From Nitrospira sp. (GTDB lineage: Bacteria > Nitrospirota > Nitrospiria > Nitrospirales > Nitrospiraceae): a stretch of 64,000 bases of DNA. The position numbers were made by a program, and so were the translations under genes. Within the stretch, counting starts at the first letter, position 1. Each line of letters opens with the position of its first letter. Shown one piece after another: positions 11,558 through 42,056 of the stretch. A model generated the notes under the pieces. That model was not told the origin of the DNA. It was given only the letters and a program-made list of their open reading frames with translations, and did no database searches. Location of the stretch: assembly GCA_016788885.1 (NCBI GenBank), contig JAEURX010000040.1, positions 1-64,000 of the forward strand. The letters are read 5' to 3'.

Positions 11558-11617
11558 GCTGCCTCCTTGTTGAGGCAGAGAATAACTCAACTCCAGCACC
11601 GGCTCAAGTCTCACGAC

Positions 11618-13419: not shown

Positions 13420-13469
13420 GTGGTCCTCCTTCGTCTGAGTGCCGCTTCAGCGTCACATTGGTGGTCTAC

Positions 13470-13910: not shown

Positions 13911-13961
13911 CATGTCCTCCTGTGATTGATCCGCCTGCACTGATACGCTCGCCACTCTGCC

Positions 13962-14892: not shown

Positions 14893-14927
14893 ACTGCTAT
14901 TTGTGCGCCGACTTCAACGTCGGCAGA

Positions 14928-15021
14928 AACAAAAACGGCGTCCGCCACTCTTGAAAGAATGACGGACGCCATTGTCCGTGTACCGTATGTAGTGCAGGTT
15001 CGATATCAGGCGTCGTTGCCT
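14928..15021 (-). promoter_or_regulatory. First (distal) ANTAR-type antiterminator unit of the nirC leader
   Basis: Read on the minus strand: hairpin AGGC-AACGAC-GCCT (15008-15021), 28-nt linker, hairpin ACGGAC-AATGGC-GTCCGT (14962-14979), then a terminator in which GGCGTCCG (14963-14970) pairs with CGGACGCC (14937-14944) before a GUUUUUGUUU tract. Both loops are six bases with A1 and G4, the recognition pattern of ANTAR proteins. The two forms exclude each other. Confidence 0.8.
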
Positions 15022-15041
15022 ACTCTCACCCACTCCCTGCA

Positions 15042-16505: not shown

Positions 16506-16556
16506 CCCCCTCCTCCTTTCAACCGCCGATAAAAGAACTAGTCCACACCCTGTCGC

Positions 16557-19241: not shown

Positions 19242-19243
19242 AC

Positions 19244-19627
<384 letters not shown>

Positions 19628-20959: not shown

Positions 20960-21033
20960 GTCCTCCTTCGGCTGTGCCGCCTGCCGAAAGGCCTCCCCCT
21001 TCACACCGCAAAGAAGGAGGCCCAGGCGGAAGC

Positions 21034-21912: not shown

Positions 21913-21990
21913 GACGCCTCCAAAGAGAGAAGAAGTAAATGTGCCCTGCCCCCACACCGTCATACCCGACGATCTGTGAGCCCCGTCTCT

Positions 21991-22032
21991 CTGGCGCCAT
22001 TGCCAGTGTTGCTGACCGACGTCGTTGTCGGT
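21991..22032 (-). promoter_or_regulatory. Hexaloop hairpin pair without terminator, upstream of porin-amtB operon
   Basis: Minus strand: ACCGAC-AACGAC-GTCGGT (22015-22032), 8-nt linker, CTGGC-AATGGC-GCCAG (21991-22006). Both loops have six bases with A1 and G4. No U tract follows. Instead the bases after hairpin 2 (AGAGAGA, 21986-21992) are complementary to TCTCTCT (21924-21930) just before the GGAGG of the porin, and GGCG/CGCC adds pairs over the Shine-Dalgarno. Hairpin 2 would exclude that helix, suggesting translational rather than terminator control. Confidence 0.55.
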
Positions 22033-22046
22033 CTGGATGCTGCGGT

Positions 22047-23959: not shown

Positions 23960-23966
23960 GCTGCTC

Positions 23967-24066
23967 AAAAAAAAAGTCCTCGGACCCACCATATTCGGTG
24001 GACCAGAGGACGTCGTTGTCCTGCGCCATCTCTATAAGGGATAGCCTCCTGAGACTCCGTTGTCCC
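23967..24066 (-). promoter_or_regulatory. ANTAR-type antiterminator leader of nadE
   Basis: Minus strand: GGGAC-AACGGA-GTCTC (24051-24066, one G-U pair), 28-nt linker, AGGAC-AACGAC-GTCCT (24007-24022), then a terminator where GAGGAC (24006-24011, sharing the second hairpin) pairs with GTCCTC (23976-23981) around an inner stem, followed by nine U (23967-23975). Six-base loops with A1 and G4 in both hairpins. Confidence 0.8.
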
Positions 24067-24082
24067 TGGAAAAGCTGGCGAA

Positions 24083-25148: not shown

Positions 25149-26018
25149 CTAATAATGTCGAAGCGCCGGCCTCGTTAGACCGAGGACTTCGCGTCTGGTT
25201 GCATCCCAGAGGAGATCCTGCGCCATCGCCAACGCCTCGGGCGAACGGCTCACCAATTTGGCGGCCAATCCAGGGATGGGCGGCTCCGTGACTCCACCCA
25301 AGAGATCGCTGCCTAACGAGTCCAGTATTCCCGCGACCGTCTCGCGCACGACCGGCCATCGTGCCGGATCGACGGCATCACTCACCACGAAAAACGAGGC
25401 AACATAGTCGTACGGGGACAACAACCCGAACCCGGTCTGTTCCTGTTCCAGCCCGACATGATACCGCTCCAGCAATCGCGCCCCGGACGCCGTAGTGAGG
25501 TCAATTTCGTTGTGCAACGAAGTGAAGGCCCAGCGTTCGCCTCGGGCCACCCGGCCGGAGGCAAGACTGTCCCAGACAAGCGCGGTCGCGCCCTTGGCCA
25601 ATGTGACTGCCATGGTCTGAACGAAACGCGAGCCGGCGAACGGAATGGTGATCTCCGGGAACCACTCAATGACGGCACCCGGAGCAACCGACAGGGACAC
25701 AGACTGTTTCGACTCTTCCCCCAGAGAACGATACACGCGATTGGCGGAGGGAGTCGTCATGACCACATGCGCCCCCGCTTCCAGGACGGCATGAATCGAG
25801 AGAACGTCGCCGGCCACGAATCCCCCCGACGGGTTCACCAAGGAAGTGACGGCGCACCCGCTGTCGTCCAAATAGGCGGGGGGGAAGAAATGCCAGGGCG
25901 TAGAACAGCGGGATGTCGCCAGGATCGTGCGCGTTCCCTCGCGCCGATAACGAAGATCCAGGCAGCCGACCCGCCCGATGTTCGCCATGGCAGCGTGGTT
26001 CACAAGCAACGGCGGCAT
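25149..26018 (-). CDS. ureD: Urease accessory protein UreD, 289 aa
   Basis: Scaffold of the UreD-UreF-UreG complex that delivers nickel to apo-urease. Family features: LDLRYRREGTRTILA, the GGFVAGDVLSI segment, TTPSANRVYRS and the late region ASFFVVSD. Start at 26018 (MPPLLVNHAAMAN) is the first that leaves family-like sequence intact; an upstream in-frame codon at 26075 would overlap ureG. Last gene of the urea operon. Confidence 0.9.
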   Translation of the reverse strand: MPPLLVNHAAMANIGRVGCLDLRYRREGTRTILATSRCSTPWHFFPPAYLDDSGCAVTSLVNPSGGFVAGDVLSIHAVLEAGAHVVMTTPSANRVYRSLGEESKQSVSLSVAPGAVIEWFPEITIPFAGSRFVQTMAVTLAKGATALVWDSLASGRVARGERWAFTSLHNEIDLTTASGARLLERYHVGLEQEQTGFGLLSPYDYVASFFVVSDAVDPARWPVVRETVAGILDSLGSDLLGGVTEPPIPGLAAKLVSRSPEALAMAQDLLWDATRREVLGLTRPALRHY

Positions 26019-26032
26019 GATCGACTCGGCCC

Positions 26033-26704
26033 TCAGTGAGGATGGGCGTGCAATGGAAGGGTCTGTTCGATCCACTCAATGACACGAGCCAACCCTTCGC
26101 CCGTATGCAGATTAGTGAAGACGAATGGAAGACTGCCGCGCATTCTCCTGCTGTCGCGATCCATCACGGCCAGGTCCGCACCGACATGCGGGGCGAGATC
26201 GATTTTGTTGATCACCAGCAAATCGGACCTGGTGATCCCCGGTCCACCCTTGCGCGGGATCTTATCGCCGGCCGCGACGTCGATCACGTAAATGACGCGA
26301 TCGACTAATTCAGGGCTGAAGGTCGCAGCCAGATTGTCGCCCCCGCTTTCCACGAACATCAGATCCACATTCGGATGTCGCTTCAGCAAGTCGTCGAGCG
26401 CCGCCTGATTGTGAGACGCGTCTTCGCGAATCGCCGTGTGAGGGCAGCCTCCGGTTTCCACGCCCAGAATCCGGTCCTGGGGTAAGGCGCCGCGTCTGGT
26501 CAAAAACTCTGCGTCTTCCTTCGTGAAAATATCGTTGGTCACCACCGCCAGACTATACCGGTCGCGCAACTTCAAACAGAGCGCCTCGACCAACGCCGTC
26601 TTGCCTGACCCCACCGGTCCCCCGATCCCGATGATCGGAATACCCTTCGCCCGCGCGTCGGTCGTGCGACCGGATCCGCAAACATGTTCGTCTTCTCTAT
26701 GCAT
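26033..26704 (-). CDS. ureG: Urease accessory GTPase UreG, 223 aa
   Basis: GTPase that powers nickel insertion into urease. P-loop GPVGSGKT, the metal-binding CPH in [31 protein letters not shown] and NKIDL are all present. The N-terminus is slightly extended (about 22 residues with HVC). No ureE gene exists in this cluster, so UreG or a general nickel carrier must supply the metal. Confidence 0.97.
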
Positions 26705-26800
26705 AGATTCACGAAGGGGATATGCCTAATCGCGAATGGTGAAGAGCCTGAGGACCATCTTCATTCAGACTCTTCATCATAGGCTATAGACCATCCGCTC

Positions 26801-27490
26801 TTAGCTCCTAAAGAGCCGCGACTCCAGACGGCTGTGGCGCATGGCGTAAATATCCTGCACCGGCGACCAGGCGGTCATCGTGGTGGCCGCTGTGGCTTCC
26901 TTGGCACATTCGTCGAACAGCGGCGTCCAGCGTTCCAGCAGATGTTGTCCTTCCCGTTGGCCTATCGGCAGAAGTTTCAGCGCGGCAGACACAAACCCTA
27001 TGGCCGTCTGATAGCAGAACGCGGCGATGGTTTCCCTTCTGTCCCATCCGGCATCAGCCAGCGTCAATCCCAGCACCACAGGGAAATGGCCCGGCGTCCG
27101 ATCTGCTTCCATCGCGGCATAAAAATCTCTCAGGACCGTGTGCGCGGCCGGCCGTTCCACCGCAATCTTTACCACCTGCCGCCCCATCTGCTGACTGGCC
27201 ACCCGCGACTCTTGCCCGAGTTTCATGGCATGTAACTCATGATCGATAGCCAGCGCCACTTGGACGTCGTTGCGCAGCAACGCGTCATGAGCAATCCCTA
27301 CGGCCACAGCCTCTCGCCTCGCCACGCCATGCCGAAACATCTGTTCCACGTAGTGGGAGAGCTGTTCCCCGCTCCGTACTGCTCCAGCCTGTACCGCGGC
27401 CTCCAACCCGGACGAATAGGCATACCCGCCGGATGGAAAAAAGCTATCGATAAACCGGAGCCCGTGAAGCAGCGACAACGTAGTCAGCAT
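26801..27490 (-). CDS. ureF: Urease accessory protein UreF, 229 aa
   Basis: Acts as activator/regulator of UreG in urease maturation. Recognised by FIDSFFPSGGYAYSSGLEAAV near the start, the conserved helical middle and C-terminal DIYAMRHSRLESRLFRS. It lies 96 bases upstream of ureG and is separated from ureC by a dispersed repeat. Confidence 0.95.
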   Translation of the reverse strand: MLTTLSLLHGLRFIDSFFPSGGYAYSSGLEAAVQAGAVRSGEQLSHYVEQMFRHGVARREAVAVGIAHDALLRNDVQVALAIDHELHAMKLGQESRVASQQMGRQVVKIAVERPAAHTVLRDFYAAMEADRTPGHFPVVLGLTLADAGWDRRETIAAFCYQTAIGFVSAALKLLPIGQREGQHLLERWTPLFDECAKEATAATTMTAWSPVQDIYAMRHSRLESRLFRS

Positions 27491-27602
27491 AGAATGGCAC
27501 CTGATCCCTTCATGACGGTGGAACGCTCACCGCGGGCCTTCAATCAAGCCGCAAGCAACGCACGACTTGAGGCAAAAGAGTCACGGCACTCACGGATCCT
27601 TT

Positions 27603-27672
27603 CCCACTTCTTCACGGATGCTCAAAAAGGTTTCCCAACTAGGCCGGAGGCGCAGGCAAAGCTGGAGACCGA
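27603..27672 (+). repeat. Possible truncated half of the dispersed repeat
   Basis: GGATGCTCAAAAAGG followed by GGCCGGAGGCGCAGGC and GCTGGAGACC resembles the first half of the ~125 bp repeat found four times in this operon, but the GTAC core and the second half are missing. Confidence 0.35.
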
Positions 27673-27710
27673 TTAACCACAAGATTCACCCGACCTTCCC
27701 ACATTTCAAC

Positions 27711-27832
27711 AGGAGACTCAAAACGTTGTCCGGCAAGGCCGCAGCCGACGAATGCACCGGAGGCGTACCCTCGGGGTACGTTGAGGATGCGTTCGAGACG
27801 AGAACGCCGCCGGACGGCGTTTTCAGTCGCCG
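27711..27832 (+). repeat. Dispersed palindromic repeat, copy R1
   Basis: Copy of a repeat family: ACTCAAAA..., GGCCGCAG, a GTACCCTCGGGGTAC core, GTTGAGGAT, CGAGAACGCCG and a final TTTTCAG. The ends are inverted to each other so the RNA can fold into one long hairpin. It fills the ureF-ureC gap and ends at the ureC stop. Confidence 0.75.
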
Positions 27833-29560
27833 TCAGAAGAGGAAGTAGCGCTGCGCCATCGGCAACACCTCAACCGGCTCGCATTTCAACAAGATGCCGT
27901 CCGCACGCACCTCATAGGTTTCCGAATCCACCTCGATCTGCGGCAGCGCGTCGTTCAACTTGAGATCACGCTTCCCGATGCTCCGACAGCCTTTCACAGC
28001 GGCCACGCGCTTTTGCAATCCCAACTGTTTCGGCACGTCGCGCTCCATCGCCTGTTGCGAGAGAAAGGTCAAACTTGTGCTAAACGGCGCCCGCCCGAAA
28101 CTGCCGAACATCGGCCGCGTCAACACCGGTTGCGGTGTCGGGATTGAAGCATTCGGATCGCCCATGGCTGCCGACATGGGAAACCCGCCTTTCAAGACGA
28201 TCTCAGGCTTCACGCCGAAGAACGCCGGTTTCCATAATACAAGATCGGCCAGCTTGCCGACTTCGATCGAGCCGACGTCATGAGCAATCCCATGGGCAAT
28301 CGCCGGGTTGATCGTATACTTCGCCACATACCGGCGCGCGCGCCAGTTGTCATGCAGGCCGTCCGACGCTTCAACACCATGTTCGGACAGATGCCCCCGC
28401 TGGAGCTTCATCTTGTGCGCCGTTTGCCAGGTGCGGATGATCACTTCGCCCACCCGCCCCATGGCCTGCGAATCGGACGACATAATGCTGATGGCGCCCA
28501 TATCGTGCAGGATATCCTCGGCCGCAATCGTCTCACGGCGGATACGCGACTCGGCGAAGGCGATGTCTTCCGGCACGCGCGGGTTCAAGTGATGGCAGAC
28601 CATGAGCATGTCGAGATGCTCATCCATCGTATTGACCGTGAACGGCATGGTGGGATTCGTCGACGACGGCAATACGTTCGGCTCACCGCACACTTTGATG
28701 ACGTCCGGCGCATGTCCGCCGCCGGCGCCTTCCGTATGGAATGAATGGATCGTCCGGCCCTTGAAGGCCTTGATCGTATCTTCCACAAACCCGGCTTCAT
28801 TAATGGTGTCCGTGTGAATGGCCACCTGGATGTCATACCGTTCCGCTACGCTGAGGCAAGTATCGATGGCGGCTGGAGTCGTCCCCCAATCCTCGTGCAG
28901 CTTCAGTCCGATCGCCCCCGCTTCGACCTGCTCGTTCAAACCTTCAGGCAGTGACGAATTCCCCTTGCCCAGGAACCCCAAGTTGATCGGGAACCCATCC
29001 GCCGCCTCCAGCATACGATGAATGTTCCATGGGCCAGGGGTGCAGGTCGTCGCATTCGTCCCGGTGACCGGGCCCGTCCCGCCGCCGATCAGCGTTGTCA
29101 GTCCGTTCGCCAGCGCTTCGGTGATGATTTGCGGGCAGATAAAATGGATATGCGTATCGATCCCGCCGGCGGTGATGATCTTTCCCTCAGCCGATAACAC
29201 CTCGGTGCAAGGCCCGATCTCCAGGCCTTTCGTGACGCCGTCCATGAGATCGGAATTTCCGGCCTTGCCGATGCCGACAATGCGGCCGCCCCTGATCCCG
29301 ATGTCCGCCTTCACCACGCCCCACCAGTCGAGGATGATCGCATTCGTGATGACGAGGTCCAAGCCGCCTTCCGCACGCGTAGCCGCCGGCGATTGTCCCA
29401 TGCCGTCTCGAATCACCTTCCCGCCGCCGAACTTGGCCTCTTCGCCAGGAACGGTCAGATCGCGAGTGATCTCGACCAGCAGGTCCGTATCGGCCAACCG
29501 GATGCGATCACCAGCAGTAGGCCCATACAGGTCGTTGTATTGGCGTCTGGGAATCTTCAT
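27833..29560 (-). CDS. ureC: Urease subunit alpha (UreC), 575 aa
   Basis: Catalytic subunit hydrolysing urea to ammonia and CO2 at a dinuclear nickel site. Nickel-binding and catalytic motifs: [13 protein letters not shown], the carbamylated lysine in [22 protein letters not shown] and [12 protein letters not shown]. The flap region is in [21 protein letters not shown]. Start [15 protein letters not shown] at 29560 is the family start. ureB and ureC are separated by repeat R2, an unusually wide gap for urease structural genes. Confidence 0.98.
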
Positions 29561-29566
29561 GGTAGT

Positions 29567-29699
29567 CGGCTGCTGAAAATGGCTCCCAGCTTCGTTCTCG
29601 GCACGCCACAATCCTCAACGTACCGCTGCGGGTACGCTTCCGGTTGTGCTGCGCCTGCGGCCTTGCTGGAGTGCCATTTTGAGCAGCCGTGCCCCCTTC
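29567..29699 (-). repeat. Dispersed palindromic repeat, copy R2 (inverted)
   Basis: On the minus strand it reads CGGCTGCTCAAAATGGC..., GGCCGCAGGCG, GTACCCGCAGCGGTAC, GTTGAGGATTGTG, GCCGAGAACG and ATTTTCAGCAGCCG; ends form an inverted repeat (CGGCTGCT/AGCAGCCG). It fills the ureB-ureC gap. Confidence 0.8.
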
Positions 29700-29718
29700 T
29701 CTTAGAAAGGCTACGGTC

Positions 29719-30183
29719 CTAACCCTTTGTCCCTATAAAACCTTGTTCACGAGCGGCTGAGAACGCCTTCTCTCGCACACTCGCATCGTCAAGTTTGCCG
29801 TTCACCAATCCATTGATGCCATAGGCGATTCGATTCCCCCCGAGCGCGACCAACGTCACGCGTTTGGATTCACCGGGTTCAAACCGCAGCGCTGTTCCCG
29901 CCGGCACCTGAAGACGAAATCCGTAGCTTTGCTCACGATCGAATTTCAGCGCACGATTGGCTTCAAAGAAATGGCAATGAGAACCGACTTGAATCGGGCG
30001 GTCACCGATATTCGACACGGTGAGGTCAATCGTCTGCCGGCCGTGCAACGCGATGATGTCACCTTCGCCGGGGATAATTTCGCCGGGGATCACTGGGGCT
30101 AGCTTCGGCGTCTTCGATGAGCGCATTGTCGACTTCGGCTTTGACGCTGACGTTTTTGTAGCGCTTTTTGATGCCTGCTTCAT
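29719..30183 (-). CDS. ureB: Urease subunit beta (UreB), 154 aa
   Basis: Structural urease subunit. Core motif [36 protein letters not shown] and the [12 protein letters not shown] end are typical. About 30 Lys/Ser/Thr-rich residues precede the core (usual length 100-125), a basic N-terminal extension. It follows ureA by eight bases. Confidence 0.96.
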
Positions 30184-30191
30184 CCGGCTAC

Positions 30192-30494
30192 CTACCTGAT
30201 CGGCTCGTGGACGGTCACCAGTTTCGTTCCATCGGGAAAGGTTCCCTCGACCTGCAGTTCCGGTATCATTTCAGGCACTCCCGGCATGACATCCTTCCGA
30301 GCGAGCAAAGTCGCACCATAACTCATCAGCTCCGATACAGACTTCCCATCTCGAATCCCTTCGAGAATCTCGGCCGTGATGAAGGCGACAGCTTCCGGAT
30401 GGTTGAGCTTCAGGCCGCGTTTCTTGCGCTCCTTGGCCAAATTCGCCGCCACATAGATCAACAGCTTTTCCTGCTCGCGTGGTGTCAGATGCAT
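30192..30494 (-). CDS. ureA: Urease subunit gamma (UreA), 100 aa
   Basis: Smallest urease structural subunit; [37 protein letters not shown] and [24 protein letters not shown] are diagnostic. Full-length. First urease gene after the urea transporter genes. Confidence 0.97.
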
Positions 30495-30569
30495 CCGATA
30501 CTCTCGTTAGTGATCATTCATTCACCGTCAAAACATGCATGTGGGACAGGGAGGAGTACCCCGTGAAAG

Positions 30570-30968
30570 TTACTGTGCAGGCTCTGCCAGAACCTCTTTC
30601 GCCTCGTACACATCATCCGCACCGACCGGCTTCTTGCCCTTATACATCGTCACCGTCATCGACGTTCGACGCGAGAGTGCCAACACATCCGCCCGTTGTG
30701 CCAGGTGAAAGAAATCGTATCCCTCACGCAACGTCAGTTCCGCGCAGCGCCGACGCAAATAGGCGTCTAGTTGTTCCTGCGACGTAAACGAGCTGACACG
30801 ATATTCGACGCGGTAGACATTCTCCTTGAGCTGCTCGACCTCATCCTTATCGGCTCCAGCAAGTGGTTGATACTGCCCGGTGGCGCAAGCACATAGGAAG
30901 CTGAACACAAGAACCATGCAGGCACCATAACCGGTCCTGCCTCCCCCAAGTTTCCACACTCCCTCCAC
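30570..30968 (-). CDS. Small lipoprotein (132 aa) between urtE and ureA
   Basis: Signal peptide with lipobox LCAC (FSFLCACATGQ); mature part about 100 residues with CAELTLREGYDFFHLAQRADV, a pattern seen in small envelope lipoproteins of unknown function. GTG at 30968 is the longest start; ATG at 30917 would shorten the signal peptide. Its place inside the urea operon suggests an envelope role in urea use, but this is only context. Confidence 0.65.
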   Translation of the reverse strand: MEGVWKLGGGRTGYGACMVLVFSFLCACATGQYQPLAGADKDEVEQLKENVYRVEYRVSSFTSQEQLDAYLRRRCAELTLREGYDFFHLAQRADVLALSRRTSMTVTMYKGKKPVGADDVYEAKEVLAEPAQ

Positions 30969-31117
30969 GCTGCTATCGACCTTTCAACTCGTCACGCCAA
31001 TGGGATCGGACCATCGAGGCGAATAGTAGCGGGGAGAGCGCATGAGTTCAATGGTTCATCTTCACGAGAAACACGTCCTGAGTGGCGGACTGATGGCTCC
31101 ACGTGGTGAGTACGGCC

Positions 31118-31240
31118 CAGGATGCGCAAAAAGGCCGTCCAGCCAGGCCGCAGCAAGCGAAGCGGCGAATCGTACTCTTGCAGTACGGTGAGCCGCTGAG
31201 AGAAGCGAGAACGCCGCTGGCGGACTTTTTCCGCATCCTG
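31118..31240 (+). repeat. Dispersed palindromic repeat, copy R3
   Basis: CAGGATGCGCAAAAAGGC..., GGCCGCAGCAAGCG, GTACTCTTGCAGTAC, GAGAACGCCGCTGGCGGAC and TTTTTCCGCATCCTG. The ends (CAGGATGCG/CGCATCCTG) are a perfect inverted repeat. It lies directly after the urtE stop. Confidence 0.8.
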
Positions 31241-31951
31241 CTATACCGTCAGATGCTGCTTCACCATTTCCGCGCTCAGGTCCTCCTTTTTCCCCGCAGC
31301 CATCACGGAACCTTTGGCCATCACCACATAACTGTCCGCCAGCCGCGCCGCGAAGTGCAGCCCCTGTTCGACCAGCACGATGGCAAATCGCCGAGCTGTC
31401 TTGAAGCCGATGATCACGTCTTCGATCTGATCGACAATGGAGGGCTGAATGCCTTCCGTCGGTTCATCGAGCAAGAGCACTTTCGGGCTCGACAGGATCG
31501 CCCGGCCAATAGCAAGTTGTTGTTGCTCTCCACCGCTCAGCACACCGCCCGGCCGCTCGAGAATTTGCGTGAGCTTGGGGAACAAGGTGTACACCTCGTC
31601 GAACGCCGCTTTTTCGGTCATGCCGTTGGACGACGTTCCGCGCGCCCAATATCCCAGCTTCAAGTTTTCGCGCACCGAGAGATGAGAGATAATCTCTCGC
31701 CCCTGAGGCACATACGCCAGACCGCGCTTGGCGCGACGATCGGTCGGGGCTTTCGTAATATCCGTTCCGTCAAAGACCACCTGCCCGCTACGCACCGGCA
31801 GTAGACCCATGATGGCCTTGAGCGTGGTCGATTTGCCGACGCCGTTACGACCCATCACGCATGCCACTTGTCCTGCCTCGATGTGAAAGGACACGTTGCG
31901 CAGAATATGGCTTTCGCCATAGTACACGTTGACGTTTTCGAGCCGCAGCAT
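31241..31951 (-). CDS. urtE: Urea ABC transporter ATP-binding protein UrtE, 236 aa
   Basis: One of two ATPases driving the high-affinity urea importer. Walker A GRNGVGKST, signature LSGGEQQQLAIGRA, Walker B VLLLDEPTEGIQPS. Branched-chain-amino-acid (LivF) type; assigned to urea by its neighbours UrtABCD and urease. Confidence 0.94.
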   Translation of the reverse strand: MLRLENVNVYYGESHILRNVSFHIEAGQVACVMGRNGVGKSTTLKAIMGLLPVRSGQVVFDGTDITKAPTDRRAKRGLAYVPQGREIISHLSVRENLKLGYWARGTSSNGMTEKAAFDEVYTLFPKLTQILERPGGVLSGGEQQQLAIGRAILSSPKVLLLDEPTEGIQPSIVDQIEDVIIGFKTARRFAIVLVEQGLHFAARLADSYVVMAKGSVMAAGKKEDLSAEMVKQHLTV

Positions 31952-31972
31952 GGTCTTCCTTTAGTGGTCACT

Positions 31973-32095
31973 CAGGATGTTCAAAAGGCTCTCCGGCGAG
32001 GCCGCAGGCAAGAGAAGACCGGAGACGTACCCTTGCGGTACGTTGAGGATCTTGTCGAGCCGAGAACGACGCTGGAGGGACTTTTCAACATCCTG
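31973..32095 (+). repeat. Dispersed palindromic repeat, copy R4
   Basis: CAGGATGTTCAAAAGGCTC..., GAGGCCGCAGGC, GTACCCTTGCGGTAC, GTTGAGGATC, GAGAACGACGCTGG, ACTTTTCAACATCCTG; outer arms CAGGATGTT/AACATCCTG are a perfect inverted repeat. It occupies nearly the whole urtD-urtE gap. Confidence 0.8.
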
Positions 32096-32863
32096 TTACA
32101 CATGCGCCACTTTCTGGCGCCCCAGATAAATCTCTCTCACCCGGTCGTCGGACTGCACTTTTTCTACCGTCCCTTCGCAGATCACAGTGCCTTCGTGCAG
32201 CACCGTCACGATACGGGCGATTTGCCGCACAAACTCCATGTCGTGTTCGATCACGATGATGGCATGTTTTTCGGCCAGCGATTGGAGCAAGCGCCCGGTT
32301 TGTTCCGTTTCCTCGTCGGTCATGCCGGCGACCGGTTCATCGACCAGCAACAACTCCGGATCCTGCAAAATGACCATGCCGATTTCTAGCCATTGTTTCT
32401 GCCCATGCGACAAAGACCCCGCACGCTTGTGCACCTGCGCCGTCAAGCCAATGGTTTCCAACGTCCGGTCGATCTCCTCTCGCTCAGCCGCCGTCGATAC
32501 GCCCCTCAGTGTGGCTAAGACGCCCTTACTGGGGCGGCTCAATGAGAGGTCCAGATTCTCCCACACACTCAAATTCCCGTAGATCGACGGCGCTTGGAAT
32601 TTCCGGCCGATGCCGAGTTGGGTAATCTCATACTCGCGCATCCCCATCAAATCCCTGTCCTTGCCGAAGATCACCCGCCCCGCCGCCGGTTTGGTCTTGC
32701 CGGATATCACGTCGAGGAGAGTCGTCTTGCCCGCACCGTTCGGCCCGATGACGACACGCAATTCGCGGTGATTGACGATGAAGTTCAGATTGTTCAACGC
32801 CTTGAACCCGTCATAGTCGACAGTGACACCTTCCAGATAAATGATGGAGCCGTGTTCGGTCAT
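32096..32863 (-). CDS. urtD: Urea ABC transporter ATP-binding protein UrtD, 255 aa
   Basis: LivG-type ATPase of the urea importer. Walker [13 protein letters not shown], signature LSHGQKQWLEIGM (the LSHGQ variant typical of UrtD), Walker B LLLVDEPVAGMTDEE. Start overlaps the urtC stop by four bases. Confidence 0.95.
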   Translation of the reverse strand: MTEHGSIIYLEGVTVDYDGFKALNNLNFIVNHRELRVVIGPNGAGKTTLLDVISGKTKPAAGRVIFGKDRDLMGMREYEITQLGIGRKFQAPSIYGNLSVWENLDLSLSRPSKGVLATLRGVSTAAEREEIDRTLETIGLTAQVHKRAGSLSHGQKQWLEIGMVILQDPELLLVDEPVAGMTDEETEQTGRLLQSLAEKHAIIVIEHDMEFVRQIARIVTVLHEGTVICEGTVEKVQSDDRVREIYLGRQKVAHV

Positions 32864-34008
32864 GCCTGCTGCCCTTCCACCGCCTGAGTCTTGGGCTGCG
32901 CGGCGGCCCTCTCCGCGAGTTTTCCTCGGACTTGCCGCGCAATCCCCATCACCCCGTCAGGAAACAGCAGGACCACCACCACGAAGAGTCCGCCGAGGAA
33001 AAATGGCCACAGCTCGGGAAAAGAGTTCGTGAGAATACTGCGGCCCAGGTTGACTCCCACCGCGCCCACGATAGCTCCCACCAGCGTGGCACGCCCTCCC
33101 ACCGCCACCCACACCACCATTTCCAATGACGGCAAGACGCCCATCTGCGCCGGGGTGATAATGCCGACTTGCGGTACATAGAGAATGCCGGCCAGTCCTG
33201 CCAATACTGCCGACACCACGAAGACGAAGAGTTTATAGGTGGCCGGAGAGTAGCCCGAGAACCGCACACGCTGCTCGCTATCACGAATGGCAATCAAAAC
33301 CCGGCCGGCTCGCGAGGCAATAATCCACCGGCACAGAGCATAGGCTCCGCCGAGGCAGAGCACCGTAATCACATAGAGCGCGAGTTGCGTTCCCGGAGAG
33401 GACAGGCGGAACCCGAGAATGGTTTTGAAATCGGTCAGCCCGTTCGTGCCGCCCAGATTCGTTTCGTTGCGATTGAAGACCAACCAGGCCATCAGCGCCA
33501 AGGCCTGCGTGATGATGGCGAAATAGACGCCCCGGATGCGGCTGCGAAAGGCGAGAAATCCGAAAATCAGCGCAAAGCAGGCCGGTGCCAGGAGGCCCGC
33601 CAGGACGGCGGCAGTGAAGCTATAAAAGGGTTTCCAGAAGAACGGTAATTCCGTCACCTGATTCCAGACCATGAAATCCGGCAACGCGCTGCCATAGACG
33701 CTTTGATTTCCGATCGTGAGCATGAGGTGCATGCCCATACAATAGGCGCCGATTCCGAAAAACACTCCCTGTCCCAGGCTCAGGATGCCTGCATAGCCCC
33801 AGATCAAATCAAGCCCCAGTGCCAGGATGGCAAAGGCCAAAAACTTCCCGAACCGGTTGAGCGCGAAGTCTGACACATGCAGCCAGGAATCCTCCGCCGG
33901 CAAGACATTGAGCACCGGCAGGACAAACAGCAGCACGAATCCGACAACCCAGAACATGGTTCCTTCATGTCGTTCCGCGCTCGATGGTGGTGGCACTGAT
34001 TCTCCCAT
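32860..34008 (-). CDS. urtC: Urea ABC transporter permease UrtC, 382 aa
   Basis: LivM-type inner-membrane permease. About ten hydrophobic helices; conserved ALGLDLIWGYAGILSLGQG loop near the N-terminus, GVYFAIITQALALM and ESEQRVRFSGY-like coupling loop (AIRDSEQRVRFSGY). Full-length for the family. Confidence 0.95.
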   Translation of the reverse strand: MGESVPPPSSAERHEGTMFWVVGFVLLFVLPVLNVLPAEDSWLHVSDFALNRFGKFLAFAILALGLDLIWGYAGILSLGQGVFFGIGAYCMGMHLMLTIGNQSVYGSALPDFMVWNQVTELPFFWKPFYSFTAAVLAGLLAPACFALIFGFLAFRSRIRGVYFAIITQALALMAWLVFNRNETNLGGTNGLTDFKTILGFRLSSPGTQLALYVITVLCLGGAYALCRWIIASRAGRVLIAIRDSEQRVRFSGYSPATYKLFVFVVSAVLAGLAGILYVPQVGIITPAQMGVLPSLEMVVWVAVGGRATLVGAIVGAVGVNLGRSILTNSFPELWPFFLGGLFVVVVLLFPDGVMGIARQVRGKLAERAAAQPKTQAVEGQQA

Positions 34009-34036
34009 GCGCTCTGCTCGACTCCTCCTCTACGTG

Positions 34037-35599
34037 TTAGCTTTCGGCATGACGCCCCTTGACCGCAAACAACCCTGAGGGCCTCCGCTGCAGGAACAGA
34101 ATCACCAACACAAGGATCAAGACTTTGCCATAGACGGCGCCGAGACTCGGCTCCATCAGCTTGTTCAGCCCGCCGATCCCCAGCGACGCGATGATCGTCC
34201 CCGCAAGTTTGCCGACCCCGCCTGTGACCACTACCATGAAGGAATCCACGATATAGTTCTGTCCGAGACCCGGTTCGACATTGCCCACCAGCGTCAATGC
34301 CCAGCCCGCAATGCCGGCCAGGCCGGAGCCGAAGGCGAAGGTATAGGCATCCACTTTTCTCGTGGGAATCCCCAAACAGGCGCTCATGCTGCGATTCTGC
34401 GTGACGGCTCGCACTCGCAATCCGATGCTGGAGCGAAACAGCAGGGCGTAAATTCCGATCACGCTGAGGATGGAGAGTCCGATGATGAACAACCGGTTGA
34501 AGGGCAGGAACACACCCACCAGTACTTGCGTGCCGCCGTTCAGCCACGACGGCGCGGTAATGGCCGTGAGATCTCCAAAGTACATGCGCGCGCCTTGAAT
34601 CAAGATCAGACTGACGCCCCAGGTGGCCAACATCGTCTCCAGCGGGCGACCGTACAGAAAGCGAATGACGGTGGCTTCCAGGATCAACCCAAACAGGGCT
34701 GCGGCAAGGAACGCAGCGGGAAGGGCGGCCAGATAATAAGAATCGAACCAGCTCTCAGGGAAATACAACTTAAAGCATTCCTGCATGACGAAGGTCGCAT
34801 AGGCGCCGATCATCATCAACTCGCCATGCGCCATGTTGATGACACCCATCAAGCCAAACACGATCGCGAGCCCGAGGGACATGATGAGGAGAATGGAACT
34901 CAGACTGATGCCGCGAAACAGGGTTTCGATCGTGCTGGACCAGACATTCCAGGATTCGATCCGTTCGATCGCGGCGGTGGCGGTCTGTGCCACCGCCTTC
35001 TGCTCTCCGGTCGCGGACTCGCCATCTCCCGCCTGTACCAAGGCTTGTAACGCCGGCACGGCGTTCTGACTGCGCATGTCCCCCAGCGTTGCCGCCGCCT
35101 GCTGCTGATGCGCAGGATTGCCGGAGGCCAGTTGCAAGAGCAGCGCGGACTCCTCCATCGCATAACGAACCCAACGATGAGATTCGTGTGCCGCCGCGGC
35201 CTGCAGCCAGGGAATGGCCGCAGGGCGCCCATTCATGCCGAGATCTGTAGCGGCCGTTCGGCGCGTATCAGAATCCGGACTGGCCAGGTTCGTGCGATTG
35301 CGCCAGGTGTCGATCACCGGCTTGATCGCCATACGCAGGCTGCGGTCTGCGTTGGCCCGCAATTCTTCCAATCGCGGCAGCAGCGACGCATCGCCTCGCT
35401 CGATGAGAAGAGCAACCGCCTGCTCTCGCGTGGTTTCTACCTCACTCGACAAGTCCGCGAGCGCCTGCTCCAGTTGAGACGGCGGAGACGCATTCAGCTG
35501 CGCCTCCGCCGCGACACCATCCAGCGCACACCAGCCCAGGAACCATGCGAGCAACCCGATTCCGATCACTGCCTTCATGCGATGACGACTCTCATCCAC
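34037..35599 (-). CDS. urtB: Urea ABC transporter permease UrtB, 520 aa
   Basis: LivH-type permease with the N-terminal periplasmic helical-repeat domain (about residues 40-210) characteristic of UrtB, followed by the membrane part starting near SLSSILLIMSLGLAIVFGLMGVINMAHGE and ending in FLQRRPSGLF. A signal peptide (IGIGLLAWFLGWCALDGVAA) precedes. GTG at 35599 has GGAAGGA upstream; ATG at 35578 is an alternative. Confidence 0.95.
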   Translation of the reverse strand: MDESRHRMKAVIGIGLLAWFLGWCALDGVAAEAQLNASPPSQLEQALADLSSEVETTREQAVALLIERGDASLLPRLEELRANADRSLRMAIKPVIDTWRNRTNLASPDSDTRRTAATDLGMNGRPAAIPWLQAAAAHESHRWVRYAMEESALLLQLASGNPAHQQQAAATLGDMRSQNAVPALQALVQAGDGESATGEQKAVAQTATAAIERIESWNVWSSTIETLFRGISLSSILLIMSLGLAIVFGLMGVINMAHGELMMIGAYATFVMQECFKLYFPESWFDSYYLAALPAAFLAAALFGLILEATVIRFLYGRPLETMLATWGVSLILIQGARMYFGDLTAITAPSWLNGGTQVLVGVFLPFNRLFIIGLSILSVIGIYALLFRSSIGLRVRAVTQNRSMSACLGIPTRKVDAYTFAFGSGLAGIAGWALTLVGNVEPGLGQNYIVDSFMVVVTGGVGKLAGTIIASLGIGGLNKLMEPSLGAVYGKVLILVLVILFLQRRPSGLFAVKGRHAES

Positions 35600-35616
35600 T
35601 CTGTCCTTCCCAACTC

Positions 35617-36981
35617 TCAGGCCTTCTTATAGGTCCCTTCATGCTTCACCCAGTCACAGCCCTTGTCAGGGTTCGTGTATTCGCTCCATGGCTCCGGCTT
35701 GACCAATCCCTTGGATCGCCAGACGACTTTGATCTGGCCGTCTTTCATGATCTCGCCGATCAACACCGGCTTATGCGTGTGGTGGTTGGCCTCATCCATC
35801 ATGATCTCTCCGCCCGGCGCGAGAAACTTCTGCCCGTACACCGCCTTGCGCACCGCGTTCACTTCCGTCGTGCCCGCCTTCTCGACGGCCTGTTTCCAGA
35901 CATGCACACCCAAATAGGCCGCTTCAATCGGATCGTCGGTGACGCGTTTGTCGCCATCCGGGAGATTATTTTTTTTGCAGTACGCCTTGAAATCGGCGAC
36001 GAACTGCTTGTTCTGCGGCGTGTCGACGCTCTGGTAATAGTTCCAGGCGGCAAGGTGGCCGACCAGCGCGGTCTTGTCCATTCCGCGCAACTCGTCTTCC
36101 GCCACGCTAAACGCCATGATCGGCGCATCTTCGGCGCGCAATCCCTGATTGGCGAACTCTTTATAGAACGGCACGTTGCTGTCGCCGTTAATCGTGCTGA
36201 TAATGCAGGCGCCTCCGCCGGCGGCGAACTTTTTAATCTTGCCGACAATTGTCTGGTAGTCTTGATGGTGGAAGGGCGTGTACTCTTCCATGATATTGGC
36301 GGCCGGCACTTTCTTCGCCAGTAACATGGCGCGCAAGATCTTGTTGGTCGTTTTGGGATAGACGTAGTCAGTTCCCAGGAGATAGAACTTCTTGTAGCTC
36401 CCCCCTTCTTTGCTCATCAGGTATTCGACCGCCGGCACCGCCTGCTGGTTGACCGCTGCCCCGGTGTAGAATACGTTCTTCGAACATTCCTCGCCCTCGT
36501 ATTGCACGGGATAAAAGAGCAAGCCGTTATGTTCCTCGAATACCGGCAAGACGGATTTCCGGCTGACCGATGTCCAGCAGCCGAACACGACCGCCACCTT
36601 CTCCTGCACCAGCAACTGTTTGGCTTTCTCCGCAAACAGATCCCAGTTGGAGGCGGGATCCACGATCACCAATTTCAACTGGCGGCCCAACACCCCGCCT
36701 TTCGCATTGATTTCCTGAACAGCCATCGAGACGACGTCCTTCAACGACACTTCACTGATGGCCATCGTGCCACTTAACGAGTGCAGCACCCCGACCTTGA
36801 TGGGCTCATTCTCTGCCCCCAACGCCAAGGCCCAGGTGCCCAGATTGCCTAACATTGCCGCGATCCCGATACCCGCGGCTGTACGGGAACTCTGCAGCAG
36901 GAAGTCTCGTCGTGAGGGAACGTGTTCATTACCGCTCTTCGCGATCACGGTATCTTTGCCCTGTGATTTCCGATTCATCAT
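35617..36981 (-). CDS. urtA: Urea ABC transporter substrate-binding protein UrtA, 454 aa
   Basis: Periplasmic urea receptor. A twin-arginine-type export signal (PSRRDFLLQSSRTAAGIGIA) precedes the mature protein, so it may fold before export. Family motifs: KVGVLHSLSGTMAISEVSLKD, VFGCWTSVSRKSVLPVFEE, NGLLFYPVQYEGEE and PGGEIMMDEANHHTHKPVLIGE. First transporter gene after the porin. Confidence 0.96.
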   Translation of the reverse strand: MMNRKSQGKDTVIAKSGNEHVPSRRDFLLQSSRTAAGIGIAAMLGNLGTWALALGAENEPIKVGVLHSLSGTMAISEVSLKDVVSMAVQEINAKGGVLGRQLKLVIVDPASNWDLFAEKAKQLLVQEKVAVVFGCWTSVSRKSVLPVFEEHNGLLFYPVQYEGEECSKNVFYTGAAVNQQAVPAVEYLMSKEGGSYKKFYLLGTDYVYPKTTNKILRAMLLAKKVPAANIMEEYTPFHHQDYQTIVGKIKKFAAGGGACIISTINGDSNVPFYKEFANQGLRAEDAPIMAFSVAEDELRGMDKTALVGHLAAWNYYQSVDTPQNKQFVADFKAYCKKNNLPDGDKRVTDDPIEAAYLGVHVWKQAVEKAGTTEVNAVRKAVYGQKFLAPGGEIMMDEANHHTHKPVLIGEIMKDGQIKVVWRSKGLVKPEPWSEYTNPDKGCDWVKHEGTYKKA

Positions 36982-37008
36982 TCAGCTCCTTTCGCCGTCA
37001 GATCTGGA

Positions 37009-38379
37009 CTAAAAGTTGTACCAAGTCGACAGCATGAAATTGTCCCCGGCGAAATGCTCCCTCGTGGACCATTCGGTCATGAGGTGATTCCACTCCAGGG
37101 ACGCGTACAAGTCGCCCCAAATGTGACGGACGGCTGTGAGATAGGTGCGGTGATTCAGTATGTATTGTGTATCTGCACCGGCGGTTGTGCCGTTCAGGTC
37201 GGAGTTCAATGGATTGTCGAACCCGTATCCGGCAATGAGCGTGAGTTGGCGATCATACGCGTAATCCAACTCGCCCCATCCGACCACGGTCCTGATGGCC
37301 TTGCCGGTGCCCAAGTTGCGCTCCTGGCCGAACCGGAAGAACTCCACGCCTAGCGCTTGTCCATAGGCGATCTCACCGGTGAATTTCAGTCTATTCGTAA
37401 TGGGCACGGCCAGTTCAGCCCCGACGAGATAGGAATTGATGTCCTGACCGGAAGGAATGCCGCCCGCCGTGGGCGCGGACCGGTAATGCCGGAAGGCGGC
37501 ATTCAGCGCCACCATGAAGCCCGCCTGGTCACCAGTTCCCATATAGGCGAAACGGGTCCCGACATAGGGCATTTGCACCGGATCATTGAAGGCATTTTCA
37601 GAACAGGCGAATCCGCTGCTGCCGCAACTGCCCGGTGCTGCCGCCGCTGCGCCGGCCCCTTGGAAAGTCCGTCGTTGCGTCTGCGGCTGAATGGCTGACA
37701 GTCCGCGCTCGAATCGCATGACGGTCAGCAGGCCGTTGACGTTTTCGGTGAATTGATGTTTCACGGTGACCTGCGGAAGACGCTGCCACAGATTGCCATT
37801 GTAGCCCATGATGGAGAAATCGATCAGGTTCGGATGGGAGGACATGATCGGCGTCCAATCCATACCAGCCGTGATGGTGGTCCGACTATTGTTGGGAGAA
37901 TATTTGACGTTCGCCAACCGCAAGCGAGGGGAGATGTTTCCCGCATTGTCGGTTTGGCTGTAGAAGTCCGCTTCCACGACACCCGTCAACGAATGGGTGC
38001 CGTCGGTTCGATCCGCGCGTAACCCGAATACGCTGTAGCGCGGATTCAACGTCGATGAGGCGTTGCTGCTTTTTCCTGCCGCGGTCGCATAGCCATTGAA
38101 CTGGCCCGGATCGAGCGGGTTGGTGTTCCGGTTGCTGTAAATCCCGTCTAATTCGATACGACCGTACGGCACAATACTGCCCTTGCCCTCGCCGGCAAAG
38201 GTGGGCGTCACACAGCCACCGCAAATCACTGCTGGTGGCGCTTCCACTTCCCGCGAGAGTCGCCCGGCCCCGGCCGCCTCTCCGGCACTCTGTTCCTCTG
38301 CTCCCACCGACGTGGTGATGGCCATGGCCACCATGACACTCACGCAGAACGCAATTTTTCTTAGCCCCCGTATCTCCAT
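37009..38379 (-). CDS. Outer-membrane porin of the urea operon, 456 aa
   Basis: ATG at 38379 (AGGAGG nine bases upstream) gives a signal peptide (RKIAFCVSVMVAMAITTSVGAEE). The mature chain shows beta-strand periodicity (IVPYGRIELDGIYSN, HSLTGVVEADFYSQ, FTGEIAYGQALGVEFF) and ends in STWYNF, a beta-barrel C-terminus. It is the first gene of the urt-ure run, so passage of urea or short amides through the outer membrane is the best guess. A pair of cysteines near the mature start (VICGGCVTPTF) is unusual for porins. Confidence 0.8.
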   Translation of the reverse strand: MEIRGLRKIAFCVSVMVAMAITTSVGAEEQSAGEAAGAGRLSREVEAPPAVICGGCVTPTFAGEGKGSIVPYGRIELDGIYSNRNTNPLDPGQFNGYATAAGKSSNASSTLNPRYSVFGLRADRTDGTHSLTGVVEADFYSQTDNAGNISPRLRLANVKYSPNNSRTTITAGMDWTPIMSSHPNLIDFSIMGYNGNLWQRLPQVTVKHQFTENVNGLLTVMRFERGLSAIQPQTQRRTFQGAGAAAAAPGSCGSSGFACSENAFNDPVQMPYVGTRFAYMGTGDQAGFMVALNAAFRHYRSAPTAGGIPSGQDINSYLVGAELAVPITNRLKFTGEIAYGQALGVEFFRFGQERNLGTGKAIRTVVGWGELDYAYDRQLTLIAGYGFDNPLNSDLNGTTAGADTQYILNHRTYLTAVRHIWGDLYASLEWNHLMTEWSTREHFAGDNFMLSTWYNF

Positions 38380-38439: not shown

Positions 38440-38536
38440 AAAAAAAAACGCCCTTCCGGTCCAACCGTTGGACCAAAAGGACGTCATTGTCCTCTGCCTT
38501 TGTAGCGTCTGTGAAAATTCAGGACGTCGTTGTCCT
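38440..38536 (-). promoter_or_regulatory. ANTAR-type antiterminator leader of the porin-urt-ure operon
   Basis: Minus strand: AGGAC-AACGAC-GTCCT (38521-38536), 27-nt linker, AGGAC-AATGAC-GTCCT (38478-38493), then a terminator: ACGTCCTTTT pairs with GGAAGGGCGT (several G-U pairs) around the inner stem GGTCCAA/TTGGACC, followed by nine U (38440-38448). Hairpin 2 and terminator share GACGTCC and exclude each other. This is the clearest of the units. Confidence 0.85.
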
Positions 38537-38559
38537 GCCTTCACCGCACACGGGAGAGG

Positions 38560-39631: not shown

Positions 39632-40891
39632 TCACCCCCGGTTCTTGTCTGCCCGGTCTTCAATTTCACCCGCCAGTAAAATCGCTTCGGCAATCTCCCG
39701 CATGGACTTGCGTAGGTCCATACTCTGTCGCTGAATCAGCTTGAACGCCTCCTCTTCAGACAGGCGTTTGGACCGCATGAGATACCCCTTGGCCCTGTCG
39801 AGCAACTTGCGGACTTGTAATGCCTCTTGCATCTCAAACGACTTCTCTAACAGCGTCGTGTGCTCGATGGAGATCGCCGCTTGATTGGCGATGGCCTGCA
39901 TGAGCTTCACATCCTCCGACGAAAACGTATGGGGTTTCGACGTATACGTATTGATGACCCCGATGGCTTTTTCCCGCACCAGCATGGGGACACAGAGCAG
40001 CGAACAAAGGCCTTCCTTCGCGGCCATGTCCGGGTACATGTAGGAGCCTTCTTTGGTGACATCCGGAACGATGATCGGCCGGCGATCCTGAACCGCGCGC
40101 CCGCTGATACTTTGGCCGATCTTCACATTGGGCTTGCGCCGGTATTGCTCGCTCAAGCTTTGTGTGGCCGCGATACGAAGTTCACCGGTCGGCTGATCCA
40201 ACAGGATGATGGAACAGATTTTCGACCCCATCATTTGCGCCGTCATCGTCACAATCAGCTGCAACACATCTTCCATCAGACGATTCGATGAGACGGTCTC
40301 CGACACTTGAGACAAGGTGTCGAGTTGCAGCGCCTTGCGGGTCATCTGATCGTAGAGTCGAGCGTTCTCGATCGCACCGCCGACCTGCGTCGCGATGGTC
40401 GACAGCAGGGCCAGCTCATCGGGGCGGTACCGTCGGGACCGTTTGTGTTGCACATTGATGACGCCGACCACCTCCTGCTTGGTCGTGATCGGCACGGAGA
40501 CAAATGCCTGATAGCGGTCTTCCGGCAGGTTGTGAAAAAACTTGAACCGCGAATCGTCACTCGCGCTGTTCGGAATCACCACGCGCGTTCTCTCGCGCGC
40601 AACCCAGCCGGTGATCCCCTCTCCCAATCCGATCGTAATGCGCCCGATGAGCTTCGGATGGGGATTCTTGGAGGCTCGAAGAATCAGCTCGTCCCGGTTA
40701 TCGGACAGCAAATACAGCAGACAGGCATCCGCTTTCGTCGCTTCCACCACTACATCGACGATATGCCGGAGGACGGACTCCAGATCGAGCGTGCTACTGA
40801 TCGATTCGCTGATACGATGCAGGACATCGACTTCGCGTGTCTTTTCACGCAACGCCTGTTCCAATTGAGTTACGGTTCGCTTCGGTGCCAT
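39632..40891 (-). CDS. GAF-GAF-ANTAR antiterminator regulator, 419 aa
   Basis: The ATG at 40891 (MAPKRTVTQLEQAL, AGGAG upstream) is the true start; the longer frame is a shadow of aroB. Domains: a short N-terminal coiled coil, GAF 1 (about 27-175, with LGEGITGWVARERT and FVSVPITTKQEVVGVINVQH), GAF 2 (about 195-345, with IGQSISGRAVQDRRPIIVPDV and LLCVPMLVREKAIGVINTY), then an ANTAR domain (about 355-410: RKLLDRAKGYLMRSKRLSEEEAFKLIQRQSM split around the conserved Ala and hydrophobic core). ANTAR domains bind paired hexaloop RNA hairpins and prevent termination. GAF domains bind small molecules, so the signal is sensed directly rather than through a receiver domain. Several matching RNA leaders occur in this window. 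It follows aroB by seven bases. Confidence 0.9.
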   Translation of the reverse strand: MAPKRTVTQLEQALREKTREVDVLHRISESISSTLDLESVLRHIVDVVVEATKADACLLYLLSDNRDELILRASKNPHPKLIGRITIGLGEGITGWVARERTRVVIPNSASDDSRFKFFHNLPEDRYQAFVSVPITTKQEVVGVINVQHKRSRRYRPDELALLSTIATQVGGAIENARLYDQMTRKALQLDTLSQVSETVSSNRLMEDVLQLIVTMTAQMMGSKICSIILLDQPTGELRIAATQSLSEQYRRKPNVKIGQSISGRAVQDRRPIIVPDVTKEGSYMYPDMAAKEGLCSLLCVPMLVREKAIGVINTYTSKPHTFSSEDVKLMQAIANQAAISIEHTTLLEKSFEMQEALQVRKLLDRAKGYLMRSKRLSEEEAFKLIQRQSMDLRKSMREIAEAILLAGEIEDRADKNRG

Positions 40892-40898: not shown

Positions 40899-42056
40899 CT
40901 ACCGCCCCCGCCGTTTGTCGGTGACGGCACCTCGAATTCGTGGTTCGCGGCGCCGAATGGACGTAAACCAGGCGCGAGTCTCCTCCTTGACCAAGCCAAC
41001 CACCCGCACCGTTCCGATGGTGTCCGGAACCACGCAATACACGGTTCCTGCCGAAACTTTCTTGTCCTGCTGCATGGACTCCCACAGGGCAGAGAACGAG
41101 ACGTCCGGCAGACGGGCAGGCAACCCCGCCGCCTCGACCAATCGGCACACACGAGTTACAACGTCTTCATGGCAGTAGCCCAGGTGTCGCGCCAAATCAG
41201 CCTCATACACCATTCCAACCGCGACCGCCTCGCCGTGGATCAGCCCTTTGTATCCGCCAAGCGATTCCAAGGCATGGCCGATCGTGTGCCCGAAATTCAG
41301 GATTCGCCGGCGATCAGCTTCACGCTCGTCTTCCGACACCACCTCTGCCTTAATTTCACAGGACCGTTTCACAATGTGTGCGACCGCGGCATTGTCCAGC
41401 GCTAAGATCTGCTCGATGTGCTGTTCCAAATATTCAAAAAACGACCGGTCGGCGATTACCCCGTACTTAATGACTTCCGCCAATCCTGCAATCCATTCAC
41501 GCGAAGGCAAGGTCTTGAGCGTAACCGGATCAATCAGTACGGCCTGAGGCTGATTGAACGCACCGATCAGGTTCTTCCCTTTTGGATGATCCACTCCTGT
41601 TTTTCCCCCGACACTCGAGTCCACTTGCGCAACGAGACTCGTCGGAACTTGCACAAAAGGGATTCCCCGTTGGTAGATGGCCGCAGCGAATCCTGTGAGA
41701 TCGCCGATCACGCCGCCTCCTAAGGCCAGCAGCGTGGAACTGCGCTCAAACCTGGCGTCCACCAATGCGTCCATGACTTTCGCGATGGAGCGCAGGGTTT
41801 TCGTGCGCTCACCGGGCGGCAAGATGATCGGCACAACCGTGAAACCGGACGCCTGTAACACGCGCATCACCGGTTTCAGGTAATGTCCGGCAAGATTACG
41901 ATCGGTGACCACCCCAACTTTGCCGCTACGACCCAGCCGCATGAGTTCCGCGCCGAGATCCTTCAGCAGCCCGCGCCGAATACGGATATCGTAGCTGCGT
42001 GCCCCCAGTGCTACGTGGATCGTCTGCTGAGACATATCGGTGCTATCTGTGGCCAT
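40899..42056 (-). CDS. aroB: 3-dehydroquinate synthase, 385 aa
   Basis: Second step of the shikimate pathway. NAD- and metal-binding motifs: GGGVIGDLTGFAAAIYQRGIPF, TTS-type VPTSLVAQVDSSVGGKTGVDHPKGKN, and HTIGHALE and HGEAVAVGM with zinc-ligand histidines. ATG at 42056 is the longest start; the ATG at 42035 is possible. The linkage of aroB to pilMNOPQ is common in bacteria. Confidence 0.96.
   Translation of the reverse strand: MATDSTDMSQQTIHVALGARSYDIRIRRGLLKDLGAELMRLGRSGKVGVVTDRNLAGHYLKPVMRVLQASGFTVVPIILPPGERTKTLRSIAKVMDALVDARFERSSTLLALGGGVIGDLTGFAAAIYQRGIPFVQVPTSLVAQVDSSVGGKTGVDHPKGKNLIGAFNQPQAVLIDPVTLKTLPSREWIAGLAEVIKYGVIADRSFFEYLEQHIEQILALDNAAVAHIVKRSCEIKAEVVSEDEREADRRRILNFGHTIGHALESLGGYKGLIHGEAVAVGMVYEADLARHLGYCHEDVVTRVCRLVEAAGLPARLPDVSFSALWESMQQDKKVSAGTVYCVVPDTIGTVRVVGLVKEETRAWFTSIRRREPRIRGAVTDKRRGR

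Follow-up and report, generated by a model that had tools for sequence, protein, structure and literature searches.

A GAF-GAF-ANTAR protein and paired-hexaloop RNA leaders point to an antitermination system for nitrogen supply in Nitrospira

We identified a putative antitermination system for nitrogen supply in Nitrospira sp. (GenBank assembly GCA_016788885.1), encoded in a window of 64,000 nucleotides, the whole stretch of DNA analyzed here (contig JAEURX010000040.1, positions 1 to 64,000). A GAF-GAF-ANTAR protein of 419 amino acids is encoded together with four RNA leaders that carry paired hexaloop hairpins, and we consider it highly probable, judging from the sequences, that the protein is a one-component ANTAR antiterminator acting on these leaders. 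The protein architecture, the RNA sites, the overlap of the second hairpin (P2) with intrinsic terminators, their conservation, and their joint loss in one lineage were observed in silico. Nitrospira, to which the comammox bacteria belong, are major nitrite oxidizers, and the finding bears on how they switch between the nitrogen sources nitrite, cyanate, urea, and ammonium.

Results

Regulator protein

The regulator gene (39632..40891, ATG at 40891) and aroB (40899..42056), both assigned by Pfam and both on the minus strand, are immediate neighbors, with the regulator start codon 7 nt past the aroB stop, and this synteny is kept across the order. The protein comprises GAF1 (residues ~35–175), GAF2 (~205–345), and an ANTAR domain (residues 354–405; PF03861, E 3.6e-19, 68.7 bits against a curated Pfam cut-off of 27.3). 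The original prediction of one GAF-GAF-ANTAR protein in the window agrees with Pfam and extends to the entire 3.92-Mb assembly, where the protein at 39632–40891 was the sole ANTAR match. When RNA contacts as named for EutV (PMC8934654) were mapped by alignment with 6wsh/6ww6, R142, K143, K149, E160, and M172 were identical in the regulator (R361, K362, K368, E379, and M391), and K147 and Y164 had conservative replacements (R366 and F383). These positions were invariant in 14 orthologues spanning the order, except R366, which was at least 90% conserved.

An AlphaFold model based on the 14 orthologues (mean pLDDT 80, pTM 0.48) showed two GAF domains and a long helix (325–375) running into the ANTAR helices; given the pTM, its domain packing was not trusted. 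The ANTAR part matched 4akk (NasR). The nearest relatives of GAF1 were the GAF protein 3e0y, for which no function is named, PtsP (3ci6), and NifA-like GAF domains, the match to PtsP having an E-value of 1e-23 and TMt 0.90, with rmsd 1.8 over 164 columns and 30% identity.

RNA leaders and their operons

All four leaders and the operons behind them lie on the minus strand. The urea leader (38441..38538; fold z −4.7) has P1 at 38537–38520 (loop AACGAC), P2 at 38495–38476 (loop AATGAC), and a terminator stem at 38485–38447 followed by a U run, and precedes a porin-like gene, urtABCDE, and urease structural and accessory genes (25149..38379, gene limits approximate). The nadE leader (23967..24068) has P1 at 24066–24051 (loop AACGGA), P2 at 24022–24007 (loop AACGAC), and a terminator at 24011–23976 with U9, ahead of the gene for glutamine-dependent NAD+ synthase (nadE, 22047..23816; NCBIfam PRK13981, E 1e-224). 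A sigma70-like TTGACA-17-TTATAC before this leader (24112–24084) was read by eye and is absent from the output of the consensus promoter scan, which returned chance-level matches only across 14800–24300.

The tandem FNT leader consists of unit A (14928..15024), with P1 at 15022–15007 (loop AACGAC), P2 at 14979–14962 (loop AATGGC), and a terminator at 14970–14937 with a U run, and unit B (14820..14926), with a P1-like hairpin at 14923–14908 (loop GTTGAA, without A1), P2 at 14869–14854 (loop AAAGAC), and a terminator at ~14861–14828, also with a U run. A second FNT unit is present in many relatives too. Behind the tandem lies an operon (10781..14792) for an FNT nitrite transporter (ATG at 14792), cyanase, a nitrite/sulfite reductase-like protein, and a CBS protein.

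The ammonium leader (21985..22033) begins 14 nt past the nadE stop, with P1 at 22033–22014 (loop AACGAC), a 7-nt linker, and P2 at 22006–21991 (loop AATGGC), and lacks a U-run terminator; the operon behind it (15096..21963) holds a DUF6733 gene, amtB, glnB, glnD, and glnA. Its paired-hexaloop site was near-invariant in 19 genomes, in all of them without a terminator. Its hairpins are followed by pyrimidine-rich sequence and a strong Shine-Dalgarno motif. All of the at least four leaders with paired A1/G4 hexaloop hairpins (A and G at loop positions 1 and 4) that had been proposed were thus confirmed in the window. Their predicted placement, before nitrite/cyanate, NAD, and urea operons and, as a variant, before the ammonium/glutamine operon, also held; antitermination of the ammonium operon found no support in silico, its leader being without a terminator.

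Two further features were noted in the window. A hairpin-rich dispersed repeat of 140 bp (23825–23964, minus strand) separates the terminator of the nadE leader from the nadE start and has at least eight further copies in the genome (71–75% identity, E below 1e-5); similar-looking sequence occupies the same place at two related loci (L230 and L231). The sole gathering-level Rfam match in the window, where no ANTAR or riboswitch family was matched, was 5_ureB_sRNA (RF02514; 29119–29410, plus strand, 87.8 bits), antisense over the ureC coding region and probably reflecting coding-sequence conservation rather than an RNA gene.

Strength of the RNA-site evidence

A mechanical scan for A1/G4 hexaloop hairpins (P2) whose loop or 3′ arm forms the 5′ arm of an intrinsic terminator found four units in the window, whereas 60 shuffled windows averaged 0.17; three of the four also had an upstream A1/G4 P1, a combination seen in none of the 60 shuffles. 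The four overlaps are spread over three leaders, the FNT tandem contributing two, so that four of the five window units end in a terminator. For each of the three leaders with terminators that were folded, the minimum-energy structure placed the 3′ arm of P2 inside the terminator, which makes termination the predicted default.

MAFFT misaligned the ammonium unit when given raw leaders, and a hand-registered alignment was used instead. In the genome-wide covariance-model search that the original prediction had proposed, models built from the four window leaders (R1) and from 29 leaders (R2) both returned exactly four strong sites, all within the window; as these are seed members, the informative part is the absence of others. 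A weaker fifth match was FNT unit B (E 0.12 to 2.7), and the remainder were at chance level. The search of the 3.92-Mb genome gave no further significant site, which points to a local regulon, with the proviso that other layouts, such as single hexaloops, could escape these models.

The window and fetched related loci together yielded 128 non-redundant units of P2 plus terminator. The gene behind was nadE in 45, FNT in 30, porin/urt in 16, cynS in 5, and urtA in 1; the other 31 had no recognized gene within 600 nt, several of them being second FNT units or lying upstream of transporter genes. The scan imposed A1 and G4 and left the other positions free, among which A2 occurred in 126, C6 in 121, and a C-G closing pair in 126 of the 128 units. 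P1 accompanied 82/128 units, compared with a rate of 8% when the upstream sequence was shuffled; the strict scan did not recognize it in about a third of units, including several nadE leaders of family f3 and second FNT units. P1 stems in FNT and urea leaders were 90–100% paired and included changes on both sides, with four such compensatory cells in FNT leaders and seven in urea leaders, counts reached in none of 500 shuffles. Pair covariation was weak in nadE and ammonium leaders, and P2 stems were nearly invariant, so that covariation speaks neither for nor against them. Alignments of the FNT, nadE, and urea leaders showed conserved terminator stems and U runs. At one related locus (L115, ~426, minus strand), three hexaloop hairpins follow one another, the last being followed by a U run.

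P1-P2 linkers in the window measured 24–27 nt in the urea leader (by stem length counted), 28 nt in the nadE leader, 27–28 nt in FNT unit A, and 7 nt in the ammonium leader; in related units the median was 28 nt (mostly 27–28, range 7–43). The first three exceed the 5–12 nt that EutV tolerates. According to PMC3369931 and PMC8934654, EutV antitermination fails with a 14-nt linker in vivo and with 20 additional nt in vitro. A survey of actinobacterial ANTAR RNAs allowed 2–25 nt (PMC8164766), and we therefore took 5–12 nt to characterize EutV and did not exclude the present leaders on that count. Folding of the long linker that would bring P1 and P2 together was rejected as a general rule: some nadE leaders had stable folds, down to −14 kcal/mol, but most FNT and urea leaders gave values near zero. 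Linkers of ~28 nt, mostly unstructured, question the generality of the EutV linker constraint.

Conservation across the order

All 28 genus relatives had a regulator orthologue (94–99% identity), in one case divided between two contigs, as did nearly all of the remaining members of the order tested; four genomes of family f4 had neither an orthologue (weak GAF-level matches only) nor leaders. Leaders, recovered in relatives by search, likewise occurred in 28/28 genus relatives, in most genomes of family f1, and in 9 of 12 genomes of f3, many of them weak. Preservation of both the ANTAR gene and hexaloop leaders in other genomes, on which the original prediction hinged, thus extends to every genus relative. 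Family f2 had the protein, with leaders weak or absent (one weak match).

In f3, aroB-ANTAR-[leader]-nadE-glnD is a widespread gene order, and Candidatus Nitrospira defluvii (L142) has aroB-ANTAR, two further genes, and then [leader]-nadE-DUF6733-amtB. In the present genome, the urea cluster lies between ANTAR and nadE. Since deeper lineages read aroB-ANTAR-[leader]-nadE, we conclude from gene order that the regulator adjoins its predicted targets by ancestry. The regulator had been described as lying behind aroB, which is correct, and as not lying beside its targets, which is not: the urea leader starts ~1.1 kb from the regulator stop codon, and the nadE leader is directly downstream in other families. 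ANTAR orthologues of 57–64% identity over most of the protein (higher at L206 and L213) were also found at further loci (L203–L215), hosted by Manganitrophaceae, Troglogloeales, and bins labeled Acidobacteria and Acidimicrobiia; a scan revealed no convincing hexaloop leader beside them, except at L206 and L213.

Joint loss of regulator and leaders

Within the same family, 15 of the 19 genomes of genus g6 lacked ANTAR by both the orthologue profile and PF03861. Leaders were absent from 12 of these 15, weak (E 0.05) in two, and strong in one (G208), and the four ANTAR-bearing genomes had two to three leaders each (Fisher p 0.0013, not corrected for ancestry). AMO was found in 12 of the 15 ANTAR-less genomes and in none of the four ANTAR-bearing ones; three AMO genomes of genus g21 retain ANTAR, so AMO alone does not predict its loss. 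Six ANTAR-less genomes have nadE directly after aroB, with glnB-glnA behind, and no hexaloop and no U run upstream of nadE. In G208, which has AMO, an N-terminal remnant of the ANTAR gene with an internal stop lies between aroB and nadE (L229, ~1178–1342), and one orphan dual-hexaloop leader with terminator lies downstream of ureD (L227, ~1517, minus strand), with no recognized gene behind it. The seven ANTAR-less genomes sampled for a nadE tree formed one group with G208 basal (support 100/98), and the co-loss therefore counts as a single phylogenetic observation. This pattern fits a single loss caught at two stages of decay, and its occurrence in one AMO-rich lineage amounts to a natural deletion experiment.

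Discussion

Proposed mechanism and rival explanations

We propose that RNA polymerase would, by default, stop at the leader terminators of the FNT/cyanase/nitrite-reductase, nadE, and porin-urt-ure operons. Nitrogen shortage, for which low glutamine or high 2-oxoglutarate is a candidate cue, would be reported by the GAF domains, and the GAF-GAF-helix dimer would then present its ANTAR domains. These would be recruited to the P1 hexaloop and then stabilize the P2 hexaloop, as described for EutV (PMC8934654); with the 3′ arm of P2 being the 5′ arm of the terminator, stabilized P2 would block termination and the operon would be read. The FNT operon would pass two such gates in series. Binding, antitermination, direction of response, and signal are predictions drawn from the sequence data. 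The ammonium/PII/glutamine-synthetase operon is probably bound by the same protein and regulated at a different step, be it RNA stability, translation, or read-through from nadE, given that its site is conserved without a terminator. The view of the protein as master of a nitrogen antitermination regulon is upheld by a single regulator, at least four conserved leaders, three of them with P2/terminator overlap, and the co-loss, and at the ammonium leader extends only to the paired hairpins.

That same ammonium site, near-invariant and without a terminator in 19 genomes, would suit a protein that binds the leaders and works mainly via RNA stability or translation, as proposed for terminator-less actinobacterial ANTAR RNAs (PMC8164766). 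We regard this as unlikely, given that four window units end in a terminator sharing its 5′ arm with the 3′ arm of P2 and that terminator stems and U runs are conserved in the FNT, nadE, and urea alignments. Linkers outside the EutV range, and the fact that ANTAR binding is itself a prediction, would leave room for attenuators run by a riboswitch, ribosome stalling, or another RNA-binding protein, with the ANTAR protein acting elsewhere. However, the loops follow the recognition rule for ANTAR proteins, and the leaders overlap no Rfam riboswitch and read as short hairpins only, with no aptamer-like core; moreover, protein and leaders vanish together, a pseudogene accompanying the orphan leader. 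Such attenuators are, in our judgment, very improbable. It is scarcely credible that the hexaloop units have no regulatory role and represent only dispersed palindromic repeats or simple operon terminators: hairpin-rich dispersed repeats do exist in this genome, as at 23825–23964, but the strong sites number only four in 3.9 Mb, recur at orthologous places ahead of the same genes in relatives, show compensatory changes, and are lost together with the ANTAR gene.

Candidate signal

PtsP and NifA act through phosphotransfer and sigma54 activation, respectively, and not through RNA binding. Their GAF domains are the closest relatives of GAF1 in the GAF-GAF-ANTAR antiterminator favored here, and the GAF domain of PtsP (EINtr) responds to glutamine, which it has been reported to bind (PMC4848567). 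The type of NAD synthase that depends on glutamine is controlled by PII elsewhere (PMC7196632). This GAF similarity, together with target operons that supply nitrogen or handle glutamine, suggests glutamine or 2-oxoglutarate as the leading candidate signal. The two GAF sensors of the original prediction are retained, and its wholly open signal is narrowed. A bolder reading, which we hold only tentatively and think rather doubtful, is that, through direct sensing of glutamine or 2-oxoglutarate, the protein serves as the principal switch for nitrogen status in the Nitrospirales, that the long P1-P2 spacing implies a dimer geometry unlike that of EutV, and that the system decayed in the ammonia-oxidizer lineage because ammonia was then rarely scarce.

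Comparison with known systems

The suggestion of the original prediction that multi-operon ANTAR systems for nitrogen are undescribed is not supported. For Desulfotomaculum acetoxidans, Ramesh et al. (2012) had already predicted 13 sites distributed over six transcription units, and in various bacteria they predicted ANTAR RNAs ahead of PII, ammonium, urea, and nitrite transporter genes (PMC3369931). The nitrogen regulon of NasT also spans several genes (PMC6759348). The predicted regulons of D. acetoxidans and Pelobacter carbinolicus resemble the present one in having sites before nitrogen genes in several operons and terminators overlapping P2; they differ in belonging to other bacteria, in not being known to include nadE or cyanase, and in that no GAF-ANTAR protein was characterized there (PMC3369931). 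GAF-ANTAR proteins were uncharacterized as of 2012 (PMC3369931) and 2020 (PMC7496416); our literature search, with most subscription journals outside its coverage, found no later GAF-ANTAR study and nothing on an ANTAR-domain system in Nitrospira.

Among characterized systems, NasR of Klebsiella (nitrate assimilation) is likewise a one-component, nitrogen-related ANTAR antiterminator, but it senses through a NIT domain and serves one nas operon. NasS-NasT, for example in Bradyrhizobium, shares ANTAR antitermination on several nitrogen-metabolism genes, but its NasT is set free by the nitrate/nitrite sensor NasS and has no GAF tandem (PMC6759348). The two-component EutV/EutW system of Enterococcus faecalis shares conserved RNA-contact residues, paired A1/G4 hexaloops, P2/terminator overlap, and several leaders per protein, and differs in its receiver domain (GAF-GAF in the one-component protein here), its ethanolamine rather than nitrogen-supply operons, and its linkers of 5–12 rather than mostly 27–28 nt. 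What is new in Nitrospira is the GAF-GAF sensor, the long P1-P2 linkers, the order-wide conservation, and the co-loss of protein and leaders.
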